A stretch of 38,148 bases of DNA, from the IMG/VR virus record IMGVR_UViG_3300025806_000073, positions 1 to 38,148 of that record. One strand, written 5' to 3'. Both the position numbers and the translations under genes were made by a program. Shown here piece by piece: positions 3,041-38,013 of the stretch (position 1 is the first letter of the stretch; the number at the start of each line of letters is the position of its first letter). This DNA comes from a virus. The notes below the pieces were generated by a model, which did not search any database, was not told the DNA's origin, and saw nothing but the letters and a program-made list of their open reading frames with translations.

Positions 3041-3823
3041 TTACCCATTCCAGCAAGTTTCACGAAATTCGCAGAACTTGCACAGGAAGAAATCTTTACT
3101 TTGAGCGATACGAGGTAGAATGTCACCAGCTTTTGATGCCGTCAAGATATTCACCGCCCTGTCGCTTGCTTCTTGAGCCAAAGCCTTATTGTACGGCACT
3201 AGCTCATAATACACTTCTGAGGTGTTTTTATTAATTACTGTAAACAACGCAGGGTTTTCGGTTAGCTCCATATATGTCTGGTACAACGCTAACTGAGTTG
3301 CGTATGTTTTGTTCGCCTTTTCTACACCGTGACGCACAAAGCCTTTAAACTTGCTGTCATTAGCTGACTTGCATTCCCACAGTGCGGGGTAGCCCATATC
3401 GACATCACCACCACAGATCACGCCATCTATGTGACCGCGTATCTCACCATCTGCGATTGAGAACCCGAACTGGCCTCCATCCTTATCTTCCGTTCTTAGA
3501 TCGAAACCAGCGTCTTTCAGCCACTTTGCGGCGTAATCCTCAATCTCATGCCCGAACTGAAAGATGCGCAGTGTCTTGGCGCTAAACGCTTTGTCAGGGT
3601 CTATTGGGTAGTTGAGGTATCTGTATTGTATTTTGCGCGAGCATTCATCGCCAATACTGGACGCACCAATGTATTTTCTGCGCTCCCTCTTTGTTTCGTT
3701 AGAAACGATAGCCTTGTCCACGGCTTCCTTGATGCTTTCTGCTACATGATCCACCCTAGAATGGGATTGAAGTAGAGGGCCAAGTGCCTGTTGACTTAAA
3801 GTAAGTGTCTTCGAGGGTTCCAA
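3041..3823 (-). CDS. Cas4/RecB-like PD-(D/E)XK nuclease with probable Fe-S cluster
   Basis: About 260 aa. Nuclease motifs appear in order: GHID (Asp near 133), WECKS (Glu-x-Lys near 150-152) and QLALYQTY. Four cysteines, one before the core (GDECSRK) and three at the end (LCKFCEFRETCW), match the 4Fe-4S ligands of Cas4/AddB-type exonucleases. It likely resects DNA ends to feed the Sak4 annealing pathway. No ATG fits. TTG 3823 has GGAG 7 bases upstream; TTG 3829 and a GTG near 3751 are alternatives. It overlaps the preceding 75-aa gene by 68 bp. No CRISPR or cas1/cas2 is nearby, so a replication role is favoured over adaptation. Confidence 0.85.
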   Translation of the reverse strand: MEPSKTLTLSQQALGPLLQSHSRVDHVAESIKEAVDKAIVSNETKRERRKYIGASSIGDECSRKIQYRYLNYPIDPDKAFSAKTLRIFQFGHEIEDYAAKWLKDAGFDLRTEDKDGGQFGFSIADGEIRGHIDGVICGGDVDMGYPALWECKSANDSKFKGFVRHGVEKANKTYATQLALYQTYMELTENPALFTVINKNTSEVYYELVPYNKALAQEASDRAVNILTASKAGDILPRIAQSKDFFLCKFCEFRETCWNG

Positions 3824-3983
3824 TTTCAATCTCCGCTGCTAGTTTTTGTGATTCTTGTATTCCAAATATCAATGTTTGGACTTGTTCTTCGGTGAGGTCA
3901 CAAAACCTTTTATCCCACCCGAACTTACCGAGTATATGTGCCAACTCCTTCATGGGCTTTGGCGCTGTTGTTACGTCATTCAA
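3756..3983 (-). CDS. Hypothetical 75-aa protein, TTG start
   Basis: The frame opens with TTG at 3983, eight bases after a strong GAGGAG site. It overlaps the preceding stop in a TTGA arrangement, which supports a genuine TTG start. The internal ATG at 3953 is preceded only by CCAAAGCCC and has no purine-rich site, so it is less likely. The protein is soluble and probably helical (PMKELAHILGKFGWDKRF, then LTEEQVQTLI). I do not recognise a family. It lies between DNA metabolism genes and may be an accessory factor. Confidence 0.65.
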   Translation of the reverse strand: MNDVTTAPKPMKELAHILGKFGWDKRFCDLTEEQVQTLIFGIQESQKLAAEIEIGTLEDTYFKSTGTWPSTSIPF

Positions 3984-6335: not shown

Positions 6336-6953
6336 TTATTTCTGCGCCCAAGAAGGAACTGCACCGCTTGATTGTGCAGTAGCTTGTGGTGCGGCAACAT
6401 TAGATGCAACGGATGTTTGCTGCATTGGGATGCTACCTTGAGGCAGAAAATCATTACTGTTCGGCGTGATTGCGGCTAACAACTGGTTGCTGTCTTTATA
6501 GCCGTTCGTGCCTTTCTTGATGCCTACTTTGGCACAAATCTCCATGCCACTCAAGTCCATCATACCGCTGATGTTGCGGTTTTGCTGTGCTTGTGGCGAC
6601 ATATCTGCGGGATCAATACCGCGTGCGCTTTCAACAATCGACTTGAGCGTCCGTAGCCCAATCTCTTTTGCAAGAGGCATACCGCTTTGGCCTAGCTTGT
6701 CACCATCGACAAATACGCTGTGCCAGAACTTGCGGCGATCATACTCGCCACCGATGATTGTGAACTCAAGGTTCATCCACTTAGCCGATGTGCTTTGTGA
6801 TTTCTTGAACCATGCGCCCTGACCGAACTCAGGGATTTCGATGTCTCCCATTTGAACAAGGATCACGGCACGAACGATTGTTCCGTTCGGGATCAGTGTG
6901 AACTCTTGGTTCTGTGGGTTTTCATCTACGGGTACATTATTAAAATTTAACAT
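6336..6953 (-). CDS. Putative single-stranded DNA-binding protein
   Basis: 205 aa starting MLNFNNVPVDE. The first 130 residues are beta-rich (GTIVRAVILVQMGD, MNLEFTIIGGEYDRRKFW), consistent with an OB-type fold. The tail is a low-complexity Q/S/A/P stretch ending VPSWAQK. Genes of this style commonly sit beside Sak4 ATPases and act as their ssDNA-binding partner. Here the start overlaps the Sak4 stop by one base (TAATG), with GGAGAAG upstream. The function is inferred from context and fold style. The end is not the acidic tail of bacterial SSB. Confidence 0.65.
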   Translation of the reverse strand: MLNFNNVPVDENPQNQEFTLIPNGTIVRAVILVQMGDIEIPEFGQGAWFKKSQSTSAKWMNLEFTIIGGEYDRRKFWHSVFVDGDKLGQSGMPLAKEIGLRTLKSIVESARGIDPADMSPQAQQNRNISGMMDLSGMEICAKVGIKKGTNGYKDSNQLLAAITPNSNDFLPQGSIPMQQTSVASNVAAPQATAQSSGAVPSWAQK

Positions 6954-7816
6954 TATGCTTCTCCTTCGCTAGAAGTCTGAGTTGATGGATCGACAAACGT
7001 AAGATCGTTGTCGGTTAATGGTGAGCCAGTATTCATCTTTTCAATCAATTTTCCAAGATGCGGCTCTTCAAGAGTGTCTAGTCTTCCAGAACGGTCTTTG
7101 GCTGGATAGCCCCATTCGTTAAGAGGTTGACACACAAACGCCCTGTATTGCCCATGATCACCTGACAGAATAGCCATAGTGATAACTTCATCAACAATTC
7201 CGGGCAATTCCCTGCCAGTTTTTGCGCCTTCGATTTGAAGGTTATATTGCTTGCGACCATAATCGTCTGTGACTTCATCCAAGATGCCAACAAAGATCAC
7301 GTTCTTTGATCGGATGTGTTGGATGTGAGTGAGCCACGACATCATTTCGCGCCCGTGCATTCCATAGACTGCGCGAGTATCGACCTTACCAGACCGCTCA
7401 GAACGCGCTTCTGGTTGCTGTAAGCACCACTGGAAGCACAAACGCCCTGCCACGGTGATAGAGTCCACAAACAACGTATCGTACTTCTGCCACACCTCTG
7501 AGGTATCGCCATACATCTGAGCCACATAATCATAATGCGACTGACTATATGGTTGATCGTCAGAGAGTGATGGGTTTGCACCGCCTAAGAAGCACGCGAG
7601 GTCACGGCATTCCATCCATGTTCGAGGACGAACAACGTCAATAGGATGTCCTTCGATAGCGGCATCGCCTGCCTCCAAGTCCATAAACAACGTTGTTGAC
7701 GGGTTGAGGGTTCGAGCAAGTGTGGTTTTACCCACACCGCTCTGACCACACACCACAATCTTATGACCTTTTTTCTCAGCCATACGCTGATCTGCTGTAA
7801 TGATTTGTAGAGTCAT
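6953..7816 (-). CDS. Sak4-like RecA-fold annealing ATPase
   Basis: 287 aa. Walker A is GQSGVGKT (24-31) and Walker B is DTLFVDS (near 113-119) in a minimal RecA core without the RecA C-terminal domain. This is typical of phage Sak4/AAA_24 proteins that drive single-strand annealing with an SSB partner. The likely role is phage recombination and end repair. ATG 7816 has GGAG 8 bases upstream and an ATGA overlap with the previous stop, so I prefer it over the longer frame beginning at 7864. Confidence 0.85.
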   Translation of the reverse strand: MTLQIITADQRMAEKKGHKIVVCGQSGVGKTTLARTLNPSTTLFMDLEAGDAAIEGHPIDVVRPRTWMECRDLACFLGGANPSLSDDQPYSQSHYDYVAQMYGDTSEVWQKYDTLFVDSITVAGRLCFQWCLQQPEARSERSGKVDTRAVYGMHGREMMSWLTHIQHIRSKNVIFVGILDEVTDDYGRKQYNLQIEGAKTGRELPGIVDEVITMAILSGDHGQYRAFVCQPLNEWGYPAKDRSGRLDTLEEPHLGKLIEKMNTGSPLTDNDLTFVDPSTQTSSEGEA

Positions 7817-8214
7817 TGCTCTAACTCCTCTACTTTGACTGTTCCCACTTGAACAGTGCGACACTCTTCAAGCTCTTCCTTAATTGCAGGAGGAGCCGCT
7901 GTGAATTTACGCTCTTCTACGGCGAACGTCAGCTTGCCGTAATGTTTGGCGTTCTCTGGCGACATGTTGTTTAACGTGTCACGCAGTTTGTCCTGATCCC
8001 ATGTGACCTTCTTGCCCACAGTGACCTTTAGCCTTTGGTTGCCTTCTGCGATTTGCGCAGTGCCAAAGTCCTTGCCATGCGAACGCAAAATGTCTCGCGC
8101 TACTGGCAAAAATGTATCTGATAGTTGTTCTTCAACGTCTTTGAGTTCAAGGCGCATCTCACTGATAACGTGCTTGAGTTCGTCTCGACGCTCGAATAGC
8201 TCACGACTGTTCAT
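7813..8214 (-). CDS. Hypothetical coiled-coil protein of the recombination operon
   Basis: 133 aa. An N-terminal coiled coil (LFERRDELKHVISEMRLELKD region) is followed by a beta-rich segment (NQRLKVTVGKKVTWDQDKL) and an acidic tail. ATG 8214 sits 6 bases after AAAGGA; ATG 8220 directly abuts the site and is less likely. It is the first gene after a TTGACA promoter, and its stop overlaps the Sak4 start (ATGA). Similar proteins precede Sak4 in other phages, but I cannot name an activity. Confidence 0.7.
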   Translation of the reverse strand: MNSRELFERRDELKHVISEMRLELKDVEEQLSDTFLPVARDILRSHGKDFGTAQIAEGNQRLKVTVGKKVTWDQDKLRDTLNNMSPENAKHYGKLTFAVEERKFTAAPPAIKEELEECRTVQVGTVKVEELEQ

Positions 8215-13796: not shown

Positions 13797-13807
13797 GATT
13801 TACCTCT

Positions 13808-15781
13808 TTATTGTGCGCCTTGGTAGGTAGCATACATGCCTACACCTTGAAGGAATGGGTTGGGGGCTTGTGACGGTTGTTGTGTATAAGCACCGTACAT
13901 TGAAGCGGATGGAGCGCCAGTCAGGAAGTTCTGAGCGTAGCTGTAAGGCGCAAGAACTTCTTGAGTGTATCCAAGCTGGTTCTGACGTTCGAACTCTTTA
14001 GCCTGTTGATCGTACTCGCGCTGTTTACCACCAATGCCGTACATGTAGTTAAGATCAGCGGGAGCCATGCCAGCGTAGGCAGTACCAATGTCAGCGGAAG
14101 TTCCAGCCAACGCGCCGTAGCCCTTACCGATATTAGCCTCTGCCGTACCGAGATTGCCAACTGCCGATCCTAAACCACCAGTTAAACGACCTGCTTCAAG
14201 GTTGCGTTTGTTTTCGTCCTCTTTCGCACGAGCTTGCGCTTCTGCGCTTGATAGACCCATGCTACGATACATGTCAGCCGCTTTTAACATACGACCTTCA
14301 GCGTCTTGGAATGCGCTTCCTTCAGCAGTAAGTTGTGATCCAGCTAATGAGCCAAGAGCCGTCCCAGCAGTTTGTTGACGCTTTTCGCCAGACTCAAATG
14401 CGCTTTGACGGGCGTTCTCAACTGCCTGAGCAACTGAACTTTCAAGCTGCGCACCTGTAAGGCCACGCGCCTTGCCATCTTCAAACGCTTTTTGCCTTGC
14501 GCTGTTGATCATTTGTTCGGCATTTATGGTGCGTGATGCACCTGACTCGAATGCTTTTTGACGAAGTTGCTCTTCAGTTTGTGAAAGTCCAGCAGACGTT
14601 CCAGCCGCAGCTAATCCACGCTGTGCCGCATCTTCATACGCTTTTTGCTCAATGGTTGTACCACGAGCGCCTAGCTCACCTGTCAAGCCAGATGCTTGCA
14701 ATGCACGCTTGCGAGCCGATTCGTCAGTTGCCATCGCACTTGCCAACGCTTTGTCGTATCCTTGCGACATCAAGTTGGCTACTGTGTTTTGTTTTGTTTC
14801 TTCGATTGCACGAGCAGTCTCTGCGGCTTGTACGCCTGCACGAGAGCCTCCAAATGCGCCTGCGCTTATTGCTTTTGCTGTGTCACCTTGACGGCGTTTT
14901 GCGCCCTCACGGGTAATTCTATCCATTGCCGCATCAACGACTTGAGCCTTGTAAGGGTCCATAAACGCTTGTGTTGCGGAAGCTGGATCAAAAGCCCCTA
15001 AACCTTGTTCTGCTAGTTCAAATGCACGACCCGTGCCACGCTCGAACGCTTCACGCGCCCCAAACTCACCTTCGCCAGCCTTTTTCAAAGCGTCACGAGC
15101 TTCGCCTAATCCACCGCTAAGTTGATAGTCACCTGTGCCTTTGCGAAGACTTGCCTCATCAACACCAAACGTTCCTTGCCCACTGGCTATTCCTGAACGT
15201 GCGGCGTCATAAGCTGTTTTATCTACGCCAAACACATCACGACCACCTTCGATAGATGAGCGAGCATCGCCGTATAGAGCATCAGCCCTTGCTTTGGCGT
15301 CGAATGCTTGAGTTCCTTGATCCGCACGAGTTTTCGCGCCTGAAAGAGCAGTGTCGTATATGCTTTTTGCGTCTACGCCACCTGTACCAGCATCAATGTA
15401 AGTCTGGGCATCTGGAAAGTAATCAGTAAGGGCATCTGCAATAGTACCTGCGCCCGTGTCGAACTGATCAGCGGCATCTGGAAGATAGCGAGCCTTTCCC
15501 TCTGCATCCATGAAGTATGTGTTGGCGCGATCCATAAACGCTTGACGCTCTTCAGGAGTGTCAAAGGTTTGGTAAACAGCACTTTGGAGCGGGTCTTCAC
15601 CAGCTTGAACATAATCAGGAACTTTAAATAAGTCTGGATACGCTTCCGCATCCATAATACCGCCCTGAAGAACGCCGTCTTCATCGGGTACACCGAATAT
15701 TTGTCCGAGTAACGCCTCATCGTATTCCTGCATATACGCAGGGAGTTGGCGTATGGCTATACTTGTGGTTGGGTCGCTCAT
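13808..15781 (-). CDS. Ala-rich helical internal virion protein, 657 aa
   Basis: An Ala/Gly/Gln-rich helical protein with degenerate repeats of about 35-45 residues around (Q/R)KAFExGxxR: QKAYEDAAQRG, QKAFESGASRT, QKAFEDGKARG, QSAFESGEKRQ and SAFQDAEGRML. The N-terminal about 110 residues are acidic. The C-terminus is Tyr/Gln-rich (YGAYTQQPSQAPNP). Repeated amphipathic helices fit an internal core or ejection protein. The start shares one base with the preceding stop (TAATG). Its GC is visibly higher than the next two genes. Confidence 0.6.
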   Translation of the reverse strand: MSDPTTSIAIRQLPAYMQEYDEALLGQIFGVPDEDGVLQGGIMDAEAYPDLFKVPDYVQAGEDPLQSAVYQTFDTPEERQAFMDRANTYFMDAEGKARYLPDAADQFDTGAGTIADALTDYFPDAQTYIDAGTGGVDAKSIYDTALSGAKTRADQGTQAFDAKARADALYGDARSSIEGGRDVFGVDKTAYDAARSGIASGQGTFGVDEASLRKGTGDYQLSGGLGEARDALKKAGEGEFGAREAFERGTGRAFELAEQGLGAFDPASATQAFMDPYKAQVVDAAMDRITREGAKRRQGDTAKAISAGAFGGSRAGVQAAETARAIEETKQNTVANLMSQGYDKALASAMATDESARKRALQASGLTGELGARGTTIEQKAYEDAAQRGLAAAGTSAGLSQTEEQLRQKAFESGASRTINAEQMINSARQKAFEDGKARGLTGAQLESSVAQAVENARQSAFESGEKRQQTAGTALGSLAGSQLTAEGSAFQDAEGRMLKAADMYRSMGLSSAEAQARAKEDENKRNLEAGRLTGGLGSAVGNLGTAEANIGKGYGALAGTSADIGTAYAGMAPADLNYMYGIGGKQREYDQQAKEFERQNQLGYTQEVLAPYSYAQNFLTGAPSASMYGAYTQQPSQAPNPFLQGVGMYATYQGAQ

Positions 15782-31572: not shown

Positions 31573-32481
31573 TTATGCACCCGGAGAACCGAATACAGCG
31601 CGTGGGTCAGAATAGCCGAAGCTATAACGCTCACGAGCTTTAAAGCGCATGTTGCCTGTGTCAAAATCAGCTTCCATGTTTGTACGCATTGGTGAGCGTT
31701 CAAAGTGTTTGAAGCCATTTGGAGCATCAGTTTTGATGAAAAACGCATCTGGGTCTGTCAAGAAGTGGTTAACAGTGTAACCCTCTGGAAGCATACCCAT
31801 GTTACGAATTGCGTTAATATCATTATCGGCTGTGCCAACACGCAATGTTGATTCCAACAAACGATCTGCAACGAATTGCAGTTGTGGTGGAATGATCATT
31901 TTTGTGCCGCGCAGAGCAATAATCATGTTACGCTCATCTACGAAGGTTGAAATATCAATCAACGCATTTTCCAACGAAGTTTCGTTGAGATCAGCCGCTG
32001 TTGATGGTTCGTTGCGGAAAGTTCCGCCACCTGCAAGTGGGTGTGCTGTTGAACAAAGCTCAACACCGTCACCACCAGAGAAGTTAGCATTAAACGCGTT
32101 GTTTAATACTGACGCCGCTTTAACCTGCTTAGTGTGAGCCATAGAACGCGCAAGCGCCTTCGTATAGCGAGCACCAAGACGGTCATACAGGTTATCTTCG
32201 ATAGCCTCTTCCGTCAAAGCGAATGCAAGCGCAACTGTTTCGTGTGAATAACGAGCAGTATATGCTTCATTTGCATTGTCGAATTCGACGCCAGACCCTT
32301 CGGATTTTGTGGGAGCATTCCCAAATCCGACGAGCATAACTTCCTCTTCAAACGCACGGTCTGAAGATTCTGTGTCAAAGATTTCAGCATGTTCGCCTTC
32401 GTAGCGATCATACTCCATACCGAACAGAGCGTTTAAACCCGGTTCTAGCTCTTTGACGAGTTGTGAACGTGAAATAGCCAT
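31573..32481 (-). CDS. Major capsid protein
   Basis: 302 aa. MAISRSQLVKELEPGLNALF, then EIFDTESSDRAFEEEVMLVG, TARYSHETVALAFALTEEAI, RYTKALARSMAHTKQVKAA and IIPPQLQFVADRLL, matches the Mu gpT-like/HK97-fold major head protein pattern. It forms the icosahedral shell. AAGGAG precedes the ATG. The scaffold and a GroES-like chaperone are encoded just upstream, and a strong terminator with tandem hairpins lies just downstream, consistent with high-level expression. Confidence 0.88.
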   Translation of the reverse strand: MAISRSQLVKELEPGLNALFGMEYDRYEGEHAEIFDTESSDRAFEEEVMLVGFGNAPTKSEGSGVEFDNANEAYTARYSHETVALAFALTEEAIEDNLYDRLGARYTKALARSMAHTKQVKAASVLNNAFNANFSGGDGVELCSTAHPLAGGGTFRNEPSTAADLNETSLENALIDISTFVDERNMIIALRGTKMIIPPQLQFVADRLLESTLRVGTADNDINAIRNMGMLPEGYTVNHFLTDPDAFFIKTDAPNGFKHFERSPMRTNMEADFDTGNMRFKARERYSFGYSDPRAVFGSPGA

Positions 32482-32493
32482 AACTCAGTCTCC

Positions 32494-33066
32494 TTATGCT
32501 AGACCCGCAGTGCCAGCACTGAACAGGTGGTTGTTGATTTTTACGATCACATTAGTGTTCGCGGTGGCTACATCGCTATTCTCAGGGTCCTGAGAAATGT
32601 CGATTGCTTTGAGTGGAAGACCAGCAGTCGTCGCACCCGTTGTGACATCTAGCTCAGTGCGAGAATTACCACTTACGGTACTTCCTGCTGTTGCGTCAAC
32701 AATGTCGAAATTGCCAAACAAATCAGCTACAGGGAATGCAGCGTCAGCTTGGATTTCAAAGGTTGCACTTGGGTCATCAATGACATTTGCGAAAATGTCT
32801 GTCCCAGTTGCACTTGCAGGCCAATAGTTTGAATAAACAATATTGCCATTTGGGTCTACATATGAACAGCCGTTAAATACGCCCAAAATCAAATTGGTAG
32901 CGCCCGCTGGAGCACGAGTAATAGTTCCGTCAGTGGCGACTATAACTAAGTCACCTTGGAAAATACCCGTACCATATCCAGAAGCGATACGATACCGATT
33001 TTGTCTCTGCGAGCTAGTGCTCGTTTTGACAGGGCGAAGGCCGAAAGCAGCGTCTTGATTAGACAT
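32494..33066 (-). CDS. Head protein, probable decoration protein, 190 aa
   Basis: MSNQDAAFGLRPVKTSTSSQ, RYRIASGYGTGIFQGDLVIV, GVFNGCSYVDPNGNIVYSNY: a beta-rich protein of a family usually found next to major capsid genes in aquatic phages. Likely head decoration or minor capsid. GAAGGAG precedes the ATG. It lies immediately upstream of the capsid gene. Confidence 0.65.
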   Translation of the reverse strand: MSNQDAAFGLRPVKTSTSSQRQNRYRIASGYGTGIFQGDLVIVATDGTITRAPAGATNLILGVFNGCSYVDPNGNIVYSNYWPASATGTDIFANVIDDPSATFEIQADAAFPVADLFGNFDIVDATAGSTVSGNSRTELDVTTGATTAGLPLKAIDISQDPENSDVATANTNVIVKINNHLFSAGTAGLA

Positions 33067-33068
33067 CT

Positions 33069-33539
33069 TTACTCTCCTTCAGAGTTCCCGCGTCCTTTCT
33101 GTCCGAAAGAAACGGAAGATTTACGTTGAGGACTTAGCTTCGGCATGGCTGGGTTGTTTTCACGCATCCAGTCACGATCCACTGCGTCCAATTGATTTTT
33201 TGAAACACCTTGATAATGTTTATTCCGCTGATCAGCCATTTCGACAGGGATACGAGCGAGAACAAGACCACCAACACCGATAGTGCCAGCGTTGCGTCCC
33301 TCATCTACTACAGGCCCTAAATAATCGGGATACTCTTCAGCGCGAACGAGGTCCCAGCCTTCTTGCCGTTTTTTATGAACGTTTGTTTTATCGTCGAATT
33401 CCATTACAGATTCGCGTATCCAACGGTGTTTATAACCGATAGGTGGTTCGGGAGCTTCCAGAGCAGAGCCGGGTCGCCATTCTTGAACGCGCTCTGCGCG
33501 ATCCCGCGTGTTTGATTCGCGTGGTGTCCTGTCTGCCAT
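33069..33539 (-). CDS. Head-region protein, 156 aa
   Basis: The start at MADRTPRESNTRD is chosen because CGGAGAG lies 7 bases upstream; the longer frame adds 7 residues without a site. RPGSALEAPEPPIGYKHRWI, then VMEFDDKTNVHKKRQEGWDL, is a pattern I associate with head modules of marine phages, of unknown role. The C-terminal half is Arg/Lys-rich and likely flexible. It contains NPAMPK, also present in the GroES-like protein two genes upstream. Confidence 0.65.
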   Translation of the reverse strand: MADRTPRESNTRDRAERVQEWRPGSALEAPEPPIGYKHRWIRESVMEFDDKTNVHKKRQEGWDLVRAEEYPDYLGPVVDEGRNAGTIGVGGLVLARIPVEMADQRNKHYQGVSKNQLDAVDRDWMRENNPAMPKLSPQRKSSVSFGQKGRGNSEGE

Positions 33540-33540
33540 T

Positions 33541-34482
33541 TTATTCTCTCCGATTTCCAATTTTTGCGACTTCTTTTGCGTACTTATCCAGAGGAATCCT
33601 CATCTTTTTCGCAAACGCCACTTGACCCGGTGTTAATTCAACCGATTTTTTCCGCCCTGATTTTACTGACCGTCCATTGGACGCAGGAGCAACAGTCTGA
33701 GCGTTGGACCGTCTTTCCCGATTAAATTTTTGGGGCATTTCTCTACGCATACGAGAGTCGATTTCTTTGTAGTAATCGTCTGACGTAGGATCAAAATCCT
33801 CTTCCAAAACAAGTTGTTCGTGGATTGCTTGAGCCGCACGCGTCATGATGCGGTCATTTCCAAACCAAGAATTCTTTTCCAACCAACCTTCAAGTTTAGG
33901 ATCACGAGCTTGTGGAGCTTGTGGAGGCCGTGCTTGTTGAGGTGGTGGCTGTTGCGGTGTCTGAGAAGCCTGTTTTGCGGCTGCTTGTTGACGCTGCAAA
34001 TTAATTTTTTGAACTCTAACTTTTTCTTTAGCTACAGCTATTTGAGATAATGCTTGTTGCGCTTTCGCGGCCTTTTCATAATCACCAGCTTCACTAGCTT
34101 CAGTGTAAGCGCGAGTCGCTTGAACTTCTTGAGCTTTTAAACGATTTTCAGTTTCAGAGTTATATCCTACGCTCATTTGCTGCAAACGCTGTTTCATCTG
34201 AGCGTTTTCTTGCTGCATGTTTTGAGCATACTGAACCGCGGCTTGGGCTTCTTCGGAAGCCTGCTTTCGTTTCGCAGTTAATTGATTAATTCGACGCTGG
34301 ACAGATTCGCTGTAATTTTCTAGCTCATCGTCGCCATTAGATTTTTTACGAACATTTGTTCGGGTTTCTTCTTCATCGCTATCCGATGTAGAAACCTCAT
34401 ATTCGTCGTCACTGCTGTCGTCTTCAACTTCAACAGATGCGCCATTTTCAAAATCTTCGTCTTCACGAATATCTTCAGCCAT
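33541..34482 (-). CDS. Capsid scaffolding protein
   Basis: 313 aa. A very acidic N-terminus (EDIREDEDFENGASVEVEDD) is followed by a long Gln-rich coiled coil (about 60-170), a Pro/Gln linker (QTPQQPPPQQARPPQAP) and a basic helical end (GQVAFAKKMRIPLDKYAKEV). This is the usual scaffold layout, with the basic end binding coat protein. ATG 34482 has AAGGA 8 bases upstream; ATG 34488 is too close to it. It lies between the GroES-like gene and the head genes. Confidence 0.8.
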   Translation of the reverse strand: MAEDIREDEDFENGASVEVEDDSSDDEYEVSTSDSDEEETRTNVRKKSNGDDELENYSESVQRRINQLTAKRKQASEEAQAAVQYAQNMQQENAQMKQRLQQMSVGYNSETENRLKAQEVQATRAYTEASEAGDYEKAAKAQQALSQIAVAKEKVRVQKINLQRQQAAAKQASQTPQQPPPQQARPPQAPQARDPKLEGWLEKNSWFGNDRIMTRAAQAIHEQLVLEEDFDPTSDDYYKEIDSRMRREMPQKFNRERRSNAQTVAPASNGRSVKSGRKKSVELTPGQVAFAKKMRIPLDKYAKEVAKIGNRRE

Positions 34483-34508
34483 AGCCATTTTCCTTGCTCT
34501 CCCTTACC

Positions 34509-34997
34509 TTATACATACGAAATGTCCTTGGGGTCAAGAATCGTAGCAATAATATTATCGTCATTTATGATACGAACCTCAAGACCTTCCACTTTGAACC
34601 TATTTCCACTATATCTTCCTATAAGAACCCAATCTTTCTCATTACACCAAGGACCATTTGGGAACTTCTGGGTGTCTGCATAAGCATCGGGGCCTAACTT
34701 AACGACATAAGCCGCTACGGTAGCAAAGGATTCACGCTCTCGAACAGCGTCTGGAACAATAATTCCGCCCTTTGTTTTCTCGCTAGGATAGTATGGTATG
34801 ATAAGAACGCGATAGCCTGTTGGCTGTGGCAGTCTTTCAAGGGATGAAGATTCCATCTGTGATGGATCATCTTCGTTTTTGTTTTCTGAGCTTTTGCCAA
34901 AAGCATTTTCAATAGGCTTTGGCATTGCTGGGTTTTCTTTTATGGCCTTTTGCGCTGCCTTCGCAACGTGATCAGGCACAAATAACTTGCTAGTCAT
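34509..34997 (-). CDS. Phage GroES-like co-chaperonin
   Basis: 162 aa. Residues about 59-157 match Cpn10: PTGYRVLIIPYYPSE, a mobile-loop-like EKTKGGIIVPDAVRERESFA (73-92), VVKLGPDAY, KDWVLIGRYSGNRFKVEGLE and IINDDNIIATI. An extra N-terminal 55 residues (VAKAAQKAIKENPAMPKPIE) is unusual for GroES. It would cap host GroEL to fold phage head proteins, like T4 gp31. The start overlaps the 65-aa gene by 8 bp. The following gene is the scaffold and the capsid gene is near, fitting this role. Confidence 0.9.
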   Translation of the reverse strand: MTSKLFVPDHVAKAAQKAIKENPAMPKPIENAFGKSSENKNEDDPSQMESSSLERLPQPTGYRVLIIPYYPSEKTKGGIIVPDAVRERESFATVAAYVVKLGPDAYADTQKFPNGPWCNEKDWVLIGRYSGNRFKVEGLEVRIINDDNIIATILDPKDISYV

Positions 34998-35187
34998 CTG
35001 CGTACTCTATGCCTTTCATCGCGGCTTTAAGTTCATCCTCAACGTAGGCCATGCCGCGTATTTCACCTACGATGTACCGATACTCCTCAAAGGTCTGTAT
35101 CGAACCATCCGCGAGCTTATCTTTAAGACGCACATCGCGCTCGCGTATGCTTTTGTATAAATATTCTGCAAGATTAAGTGCGTCCAT
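34990..35187 (-). CDS. Hypothetical 65-aa helical protein
   Basis: MDALNLAEYLYKSIRERDVR, then FEEYRYIVGEIRGMAYVEDE: two or three amphipathic helices, with no membrane segment. No Shine-Dalgarno lies upstream, and a promoter -10 sits 8 bases before the ATG, suggesting a leaderless message. The family is commonly seen between portal and GroES/scaffold genes but has no known function to me. Confidence 0.65.
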   Translation of the reverse strand: MDALNLAEYLYKSIRERDVRLKDKLADGSIQTFEEYRYIVGEIRGMAYVEDELKAAMKGIEYADD

Positions 35188-35514: not shown

Positions 35515-38013
35515 CTATCCTTTGCTCATTGCATTTAGAGAAGCAATGTCACGCTGTGTTTGCAATCTCTCTTCAGCAATTCTGGTTTTGTCTTCCAGAG
35601 CGGCTTCGGACACATCAATACGCTGTTGTGCTATGAGTACGTCACTGCGCTCCTTCTCTTCATTGAATGCCTGTTTTGCGTCAAACTCTTCTTGCTTACG
35701 CTGTAAATCTGCGGCCTTCAGTTGAAGCTCTTGGTTTCTTATATCTACCAAAGGATCGCCTTGCTCTTCTGGCGTCATGGCCTGAACAAGTTCTTCGGTT
35801 AGATCAGCAATAATCTGAGCCGCCATCGCATCAACTTGAGGCTGTATTTGCTGCATCATTTGTTGCTGTGGGTCCATAGGAGGTTGACCCGGAGGTGGTG
35901 GTGGCTGCATCATCGCTTGCTGTTGCATCATCTGCATTTGCTCTGGTGGAATCTGGCTCATGACTTCTTGTTGCGCCTGTGCCTCTGCGAGTAGCCCTAT
36001 ATGCTCCTGTATGTGGCCTTGTAGCGCCATAATAGCATTAGGGTTCAGTTGCATAGCTGGAGTAGACATAACAGCCATATGAGCCTCTATGTGAGCCTCG
36101 TGGTCTTGCTGTGGGAATGCCTGTAAAGGAGCGCCCATAAGAGCGTTTTGGTTTTCCTTCGATGGATTAACAGGAGGAGGTGGTGGTGGAGGCGGTGGCA
36201 AGATGCCATCAATGTTAGTCACACCAAGAGCCTCGTACATTTTACGGTACGCTTGATACAATCCCTGTGGACCGCCGTGTATCTGTGGGTTTGACTGAAC
36301 CATTTGTAATTCTGTTTGTGCCAACGCAATACGCTGGGACATAGAGAAAATGTTTGGATCAGACACAGGAAGAACGTCAATGCGAGCATCAAAGTCCTGT
36401 ACGAATATTTCTGGACCCATCTGCATATCAGCAGGATATGGGTACGCCTGAACAGTTTCAGCGAAAATCTTAGAAAGCAGCTTAAACTCAATCTTTTGAG
36501 AATAATGCAAACGCTTATGGATCGCAGACATAACCTTTGTCCCACGCTCCATGATCGCCATAGTGGTTCCCACTGGCGTCTCACCGCTCATCTCACCGAC
36601 CTTCATGTCAGCCATAGATGCGAACCTACGCCCAGCGTCTACAAGCGTTCCCAGAAGGTTATAAAGCGTCCCTGAAGGCTCCTTGAAGGGGAGTGGCATC
36701 AAAGAGCCTTGCAGGGTGCCTCCAACCACATCAATATCGCGGAACTCACCCGGTTGTAGGGGGGAATCTTCATCACGAATACGAGCGCCACGGGCCTTAA
36801 AGCCTGCTGGCAAGTTGGAGAGGGTGCCTGCATCAATCAATTGACGCAAAATAGACGTAGATGCTTGGGCTAAACCACCAATCATATGTGTTAAGCCAAG
36901 GCCATAAAAACCAAGACCCGGAAGAAACTTGTAATGCACGAAGTATTGCTTCGCACGCTTCATCGGGTCAGCTTCCTCGTAGCTCCTACGAACAGATAGT
37001 ACATCACCAGAATCGGCAATGATCGTGACGATATAAGGAAGTCGCAAACCTGTAGGCTCGCCGTCCTCACCCATGTCCTCGAAACCTTCAATGTCTAAGG
37101 ACGTATGAACCTCATAAAGAGTTATATCCTCAGACGGTCCAGATGGATGTACGCCTTGAATGTCATCAATAGACTCCTCAACCTCACCCATAGACGCTTC
37201 GTCATAGTTGGAAGAACTTGGAAGTTCGATGTCTTTGTAAAATCCTACAAGTTGTAGCTTTCGAACATCATTCGAATCCATATTCAAACGATGCGTAATC
37301 CGCGGAGAAGACATCAAATCAGTTGCACCATAAGGCACAATCACATCTTCAGCATGAATGAACTTACTGACCGCACGCCCTTTAAGCGGGTCAAAGTAAA
37401 CTTTTTTAAATGTCGATCCAATCACAGGTAAATAAAACAGCATCTGATCCAACTCAGGATCGTACTCTTCCATTTCATATGTAATCATATAATTCATGTA
37501 GTCTTTGACACGCTCAGACTGCTTAACAAGCATTTCATTCTGTGCGCCAACAACGGCGGTACGAACAGGTCCAGTTGCAGGCAATAACTCACGATAAGCC
37601 TGCGCTTGAAACTGCGTAACACTTTCAGCAAGCAAAGGATGAATAACACCAGAAGAACCCTCGAAAGGCTCACTGCGCTCTTCAGTCTTCATACCAAGAA
37701 ACTCTAGTCCCTTTTTGTATGTATCTTCCCAGTCTTGGCGTGCCGCAAAGTCATCTTCAATCGCGTTAACAATATCAGAAGATATAGCCATAAGCTCATC
37801 TTCCTCAATAACGTCTGCAAGGTTTCCATCAAAAGGAACGTCAGCTACAGGCTCACCCTCTTCTTCATATTCACCAACAACGGCACTACCATCATCAAAT
37901 TCAGTAATCCCCGGAGTTGCTGGAAGCTCAGGTATTTCCTGCATACGAGTTGTATCTTCAATCACTGGTTCTTCGGGAGTGCCGCCAGCACCTAAACCTT
38001 GCTCAATAGCCAT
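35515..38013 (-). CDS. Portal protein
   Basis: 832 aa. NAIEDDFAARQDWEDTYKKG, EPFEGSSGVIHPLLAESVTQ, QFQAQAYRELLPATGPV, KFIHAEDVIVPYGATDLMSS and YFVHYKFLPGLGFYGLGL are the pattern of P22-like large portal proteins. It forms the dodecameric ring through which DNA is packaged and ejected. The C-terminal about 220 residues carry a PPPPPPPPV run, Gln/Met-rich stretches (QMMQQQAMMQPPPPPGQP) and a closing coiled coil, like the long C-terminal barrel of P22 portal. Its ATG shares one base with the preceding stop. Confidence 0.9.
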   Translation of the reverse strand: MAIEQGLGAGGTPEEPVIEDTTRMQEIPELPATPGITEFDDGSAVVGEYEEEGEPVADVPFDGNLADVIEEDELMAISSDIVNAIEDDFAARQDWEDTYKKGLEFLGMKTEERSEPFEGSSGVIHPLLAESVTQFQAQAYRELLPATGPVRTAVVGAQNEMLVKQSERVKDYMNYMITYEMEEYDPELDQMLFYLPVIGSTFKKVYFDPLKGRAVSKFIHAEDVIVPYGATDLMSSPRITHRLNMDSNDVRKLQLVGFYKDIELPSSSNYDEASMGEVEESIDDIQGVHPSGPSEDITLYEVHTSLDIEGFEDMGEDGEPTGLRLPYIVTIIADSGDVLSVRRSYEEADPMKRAKQYFVHYKFLPGLGFYGLGLTHMIGGLAQASTSILRQLIDAGTLSNLPAGFKARGARIRDEDSPLQPGEFRDIDVVGGTLQGSLMPLPFKEPSGTLYNLLGTLVDAGRRFASMADMKVGEMSGETPVGTTMAIMERGTKVMSAIHKRLHYSQKIEFKLLSKIFAETVQAYPYPADMQMGPEIFVQDFDARIDVLPVSDPNIFSMSQRIALAQTELQMVQSNPQIHGGPQGLYQAYRKMYEALGVTNIDGILPPPPPPPPPVNPSKENQNALMGAPLQAFPQQDHEAHIEAHMAVMSTPAMQLNPNAIMALQGHIQEHIGLLAEAQAQQEVMSQIPPEQMQMMQQQAMMQPPPPPGQPPMDPQQQMMQQIQPQVDAMAAQIIADLTEELVQAMTPEEQGDPLVDIRNQELQLKAADLQRKQEEFDAKQAFNEEKERSDVLIAQQRIDVSEAALEDKTRIAEERLQTQRDIASLNAMSKG

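Follow-up and report, generated by a model that had tools for sequence, protein, structure and literature searches.

A probable phage-encoded lid for GroEL

Phage-encoded lids with a Cpn10 fold are known from bacteriophages T4 (gp31) and RB49 (CocO). According to the passages of PMC3012670 covered here, gp31 serves the folding of the T4 capsid, and both gp31 and CocO can substitute for GroES in all essential folding of E. coli. The covered part of PMC6318259 describes a flexible loop of 22 residues in gp31 versus 16 in GroES, longer loops that contribute to an enlargement of the folding chamber, and missing roof loops. In known complexes, the hydrophobic tripeptide of the mobile loop is the part that binds helices H and I of GroEL (PMC5653362, in the passages covered). 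Furthermore, GroES has been listed as one of the 13 core genes of the HTVC023P-type pelagiphages (PMC9599517, with the same restriction), and the gene that is discussed below is therefore not new as such.

The window, i.e. the whole stretch of DNA that was analyzed, is a linear virus contig of 38,148 bases that is related to the HTVC023P pelagiphages and is probably a fragment. It carries a GroES-like gene within a head module (Table 1). Orthologues with 39-43% identity and an equal gene order from portal to capsid are found in the Pelagibacter phages HTVC023P (gp36) and HTVC027P (gp55) and in DSL-LC04. Compared with the HTVC023P-type GroES the N-terminal arm differs in sequence and length, the present arm having 56 aa and an LFVPDHV start. 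The closest predicted structures are GroES proteins of uncultured viruses in BFVD (UniProt A0A221S4I5 and A0A221S3B8); the alignment with the top match, at 38% identity, spans all 162 residues including those of the arm, and sequence divergence is the only difference.

Table 1. Features of the GroES-like gene and of the surrounding head module, in the direction of transcription
Feature	Position	Strand	Basis
Portal protein gene	35515..38013	minus	phrog_1216, E 6.6e-42; upstream in 128/129 loci with enough flank
Small conserved ORF	34990..35187	minus	phrog_32603, E 7.8e-4; homologue upstream of GroES in 275/281 loci
GroES-like co-chaperonin gene, 162 aa	34509..34997	minus	PF00166, phrog_3188, AlphaFold2 Cpn10 fold
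N-terminal arm, residues 1-56	34830..34997	minus	without counterpart in 37 bacterial GroES
Segment of the mobile loop (residues 70-92), lengthened by 4 residues, with the GroEL-binding tripeptide in GGIIV	34722..34790	minus	segment-length comparison
Segment of the roof hairpin (residues 102-120) containing W117-C118, specific to the family	34638..34694	minus	WC counts, length
Conserved C-terminal tail, residues 154-162, consensus [DN]PEDILH	34512..34538	minus	alignment, motif counts
Probable scaffolding protein gene, directly downstream of GroES	33541..34488	minus	phrog_28737
Conserved head-module protein, holds second NPAMPK	33069..33539	minus	phrog_36003; 239/239 loci with enough flank
Conserved head-module protein	32494..33066	minus	phrog_37556 (PHROG match)
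Major capsid protein, 302 aa, 33 kDa	31573..32481	minus	PF25209, E 1.4e-11; phrog_371

Identity and fold of the GroES-like protein

The reading frame starts with an ATG at 34997. In a Pfam profile search, PF00166 (Cpn10) matched residues 58-153 of its product with an E value of 2.6e-10 and a score of 40.6 bits (cut-off 21.1), thereby covering positions 3-93 of the 93 in the profile. PHROG 3188 'co-chaperonin GroES' was matched as well (E 1.1e-12), as were solved GroES chains at the sequence level. The AlphaFold2 model of the monomer, for which 59 related sequences served as input, reached a mean pLDDT of 88.5 and displayed the Cpn10 beta-barrel rather than a different fold. A Foldseek comparison of this model with the PDB yielded 31 matches at E < 0.001, the best of which were all Cpn10 (4pj1, E 4.9e-7; 8wuc, E 1.3e-6). 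T4 gp31 was recovered by a fold match only (1g31, E 2.4e-3) and was not found by sequence searches starting from the phage GroES. The ORF encodes a genuine protein of the Cpn10/GroES fold, and the clear Cpn10 core with a GGII mobile-loop-type segment that the preliminary description had reported was recovered in full (K74-T-K-G-G-I-I-V-P82).

Within the coding sequence, synonymous variation among 53 close relatives was low in codons 1-9 (34971-34997; 0.11) and in codons 109-135 (34593-34673; 0.06-0.22, versus 0.3-0.5 over most other codons). The RNA around the start was predicted to fold more stably than shuffled sequences (z -2.9). These stretches and the fold at the start could reflect recombination or else a signal that acts in translation or at the RNA level.

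Head module and linkage to the capsid lineage

The genes of the module are all on the minus strand and follow the order portal, small ORFs, GroES, scaffold-like protein, two head proteins and major capsid protein, the small ORF in front sharing 8 bases with the start of GroES. The scaffold role is probable, judging from position and sequence character, and of the 267 loci with sufficient flank, 248 have a recognisable scaffold gene immediately behind GroES. The capsid gene was found downstream at all 161 GroES loci for which the flank sufficed. The placement next to scaffold and near the capsid gene, as originally described, thus agrees with the present annotation. The same order recurs in more distant phages of Caulobacter, Roseobacter, Planktothrix and Alcaligenes and in spring-water phages.

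The linkage also holds in the other direction. Among phage records, the 18 with a major capsid protein of at least 40% identity all had GroES on the same strand, about 2-3 kb upstream; this number exceeds that of the independent lineages, as several of these records are near-identical. Two records with more distant capsid relatives (26% identity), MW202601 and BK063670, were considered as GroES-free controls because their head module seemed to be devoid of GroES, and were discarded after a search of the whole records had located a Cpn10 elsewhere in the genome. Given these two relatives, the adjacency of GroES and capsid is a property of one lineage. The Cpn10 genes outside the head module are located at 13798-14013 of MW202601.1 and 42883-43134 of BK063670.1, one phage being assigned to a Methanomicrobiales host.

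Cpn60 (GroEL) was detected neither in the contig, which is a linear fragment, nor in another 23 virus records between 40 and 65 kb in length, which accords with the absence of GroEL noted before. Considering these 24 records, the protein, if it acts as a lid at all, must use the GroEL of the host.

Some observations were made alongside. In the metagenome-assembled genome of Maricaulis sp. IN14, Cpn10 was matched 11 times, mostly by phage-type sequences, and this bin therefore probably includes many phage contigs. In the 16.5-kb records OR846807.1 and OR848137.1, which bear the name Listeria phage, a GroES-like frame without annotation lies near one end (327-614) and is possibly host DNA in the record. 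On the contig itself, a gene for a Cas4-domain exonuclease (phrog_1990) at 3041-3829 and one for a Sak4-like annealing protein (phrog_124) at 6953-7864 constitute a probable phage recombination pair.

It had further been proposed that GroES is connected to the head-module protein at 33069-33539 by a shared hexapeptide, NPAMPK. The literal identity is there, but the functional link does not hold. When only hexapeptides with at least four different residues were counted, the 37 proteins of the window shared 5, versus 3.1 in shuffles; the pair itself gave a match in 0 of 300 shuffles, but it was chosen after the fact. NPAMPK was retained in merely 6 of 291 GroES relatives, the site reading NPVMPK, NESIPK, NPTLPK, NAEMPK and others in close relatives, where PKPIENAFGK forms the constant part. 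The segment in the partner protein aligns to HPxMP in its relatives. A shared functional tag was rejected on these grounds, and the sharing is most simply a coincidence.

Mobile loop, roof and C-terminal tail

The 291 phage relatives were compared with a panel of 37 bacterial GroES, most of which came from alphaproteobacterial genomes. Both groups have the Cpn10 fold, the GGII mobile loop and a roof segment of equal length in common, whereas the bacterial proteins have no arm, a mobile-loop segment that is four residues shorter, no Trp-Cys and no PxDI tail. The preliminary description missed the longer loop, the Trp-Cys and the tail, which are the more telling features.

The segment from R63 to G102 comprises 39 residues in 285 of the 291 phage relatives and 35 in all 37 bacterial GroES, none of which has the phage length; T4 gp31 has 40, i.e. 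five above the bacterial value. GGIIV takes up residues 77-81, and a hydrophobic tripeptide (IVL, IIV, LYL and similar) occupies the mobile loop in nearly all phage relatives. In the roof segment, Trp-Cys was present in every phage relative (291/291) versus none of the bacterial proteins (0/37). The length of this segment is 17-18 residues in the phage family (18 in the protein under study) and 17 in bacteria, as compared to 10 in gp31. The parallel with gp31 that had been drawn earlier consequently stands for the length of the mobile loop, and fails for the roof, which gp31 lacks according to the covered part of PMC6318259 and which the present family keeps. The tail of 9-10 residues carries a PxDI-type motif in 274 of the 291 phage relatives versus 0 of 37 bacterial GroES, and its P156 is invariant in the alignment. 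A likeness to the tail of gp31 (QPKEI vs DPKDI) was judged to be an alignment artefact. The literature passages covered make no mention of the loop lengthening, the Trp-Cys or the tail.

The N-terminal arm

About 56 residues precede the core, close to the 55 that had been counted originally. The search among viral Cpn10 relatives showed such arms to be widespread, with a median length of 50 residues (range 4-79) ahead of the core in the 291 phage proteins, versus a median of 3 in the 37 bacterial GroES and 9 residues in gp31. An arm was present in nearly all close relatives, and distant phages with an equal gene order have 3-32 residues before the core. The arm is a common, fast-changing trait of the phage group and not peculiar to the present phage, and as it is much shorter or absent in the distant phages, the head module does not depend on it.

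When the pairwise counts of 54 distinct close relatives were pooled, dN/dS came to about 0.15 in the arm versus 0.06 in the core; as this calculation did without a tree, the values are approximate. The arm is a translated segment on which purifying selection acts, and it evolves faster than the core. A mis-called start could be ruled out on basis of the codon-level purifying selection and the ATG starts that recur across relatives, and a host-derived feature on basis of the few (about 3) residues that precede the core in bacteria.

The model predicts a confident helix at residues 9-21, while in an HTVC027P-like relative the predicted arm helix spans residues 18-43, and the predicted arm fold differs between subfamilies. 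The motif [LI]x[DN][AK][YF] occurred in 258 of 283 arms and an LFVPD-type motif in 84. Within a set of 20 divergent arms, motifs like these were recovered 10 and 5 times, respectively (1.0 and 0.0 in shuffles), and DPxx[LIVM] 10 times (0.6 in shuffles). Since the motifs were picked after the arms had been viewed and the sequences share ancestry, they are evidence of conservation and not of function.

The arm might be a device that steers substrates or binds the scaffold, and as such the main functional novelty of the protein. Purifying selection, the recurring motifs and the confident helix all speak in its favor, but the wide range in length, a helix that shifts between subfamilies, the 3-32 residues in relatives with the same module and the chance nature of the NPAMPK link make it an unlikely one, and the original suggestion that the arm could steer substrates was not sustained. 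The idea is compatible with a lid function and does not compete with it.

At a protein volume factor of 1.21 cubic angstroms per dalton, seven arms (about 43 kDa) were calculated to take up about 52,000 cubic angstroms, provided that they point inward. The covered part of PMC6318259 quotes a volume of 194,000 cubic angstroms for the GroEL-GroES chamber, and by this value seven inward arms would fill a quarter of it.

Proposed role

We consider it likely that the gene specifies a phage lid subunit for the host GroEL, used to fold the coat protein of its own capsid lineage. The observations behind this reading are the Cpn10 fold, the loop motif, the loop lengthening, the lack of a phage GroEL and the fixed linkage to the capsid module. 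The subunits would form a heptameric ring that docks on host GroEL via the GGIIV mobile loop and, during infection, takes the place of the host GroES or adds to it. The coat protein, and perhaps the scaffold too, would then fold with the phage lid; the genomic linkage points to the major capsid protein as the most likely client. The arm, a fast-evolving accessory segment, would, as a guess, most likely tune the inner surface of the lid or the contact of the lid with a phage client or scaffold. The suggested role would be similar to that of gp31, with the roof of GroES retained, and the lid would be reserved for the head module of a single capsid lineage. The dedicated cap put forward in the preliminary description is supported by the fold, the conserved hydrophobic mobile loop, the absence of a phage GroEL and the tight two-way capsid linkage, while the role itself is one that we infer from them.

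Alternatively, the protein could be a general-purpose booster in a situation where host GroES is limiting, without any preference for the capsid, the gene position then reflecting late expression. The core fold and docking loop resemble those of ordinary GroES, the roof is kept, a capsid protein of 33 kDa has room in the normal cage, and gp31 and CocO can, as cited above, stand in for GroES altogether. Yet the gene strictly accompanies a single capsid lineage in phages whose hosts are very different, and its loop length, Trp-Cys and C-terminal tail are family-specific and suggest a specialised lid, which renders the booster quite improbable. A new use of the Cpn10 fold in phage structure or assembly without any lid function, e.g. 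as a ring that sits on the portal or the prohead and is attached by the arm, would fit the head-module position, the fast-changing arm with its short motifs, the conserved tail and a GroEL binding that is predicted from sequence, but is very improbable considering the conserved mobile loop and hydrophobic GroEL-binding tripeptide, for which a structural part has no need.

For the favored reading, that of a lid on host GroEL, the size argument known from T4 gp23 does not apply, since a capsid protein of 33 kDa should fit the normal GroEL-GroES chamber and there is no obvious need for a larger one. Wall chemistry, affinity for the host GroEL and lid supply in late infection are open alternatives to chamber size. 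More doubtful, though still worth entertaining, is the extended proposal of a second, independently shaped capsid-dedicated lid, in which the roof is kept, the mobile loop is longer by exactly four residues, the Trp-Cys and the conserved tail come in addition, and seven lineage-specific arms on the ring would alter the chamber or recruit the capsid or scaffold protein of the phage.

Should the lid indeed be specific to this capsid lineage, marine and freshwater phages of an abundant group would rely on a tailored GroEL chamber in spite of their small capsid protein. The system would then put gp31-type lids to the test, by setting chamber size against wall chemistry and substrate contact, and the constant four-residue lengthening of the loop and the variable arm would provide clean, swappable parts to do so.
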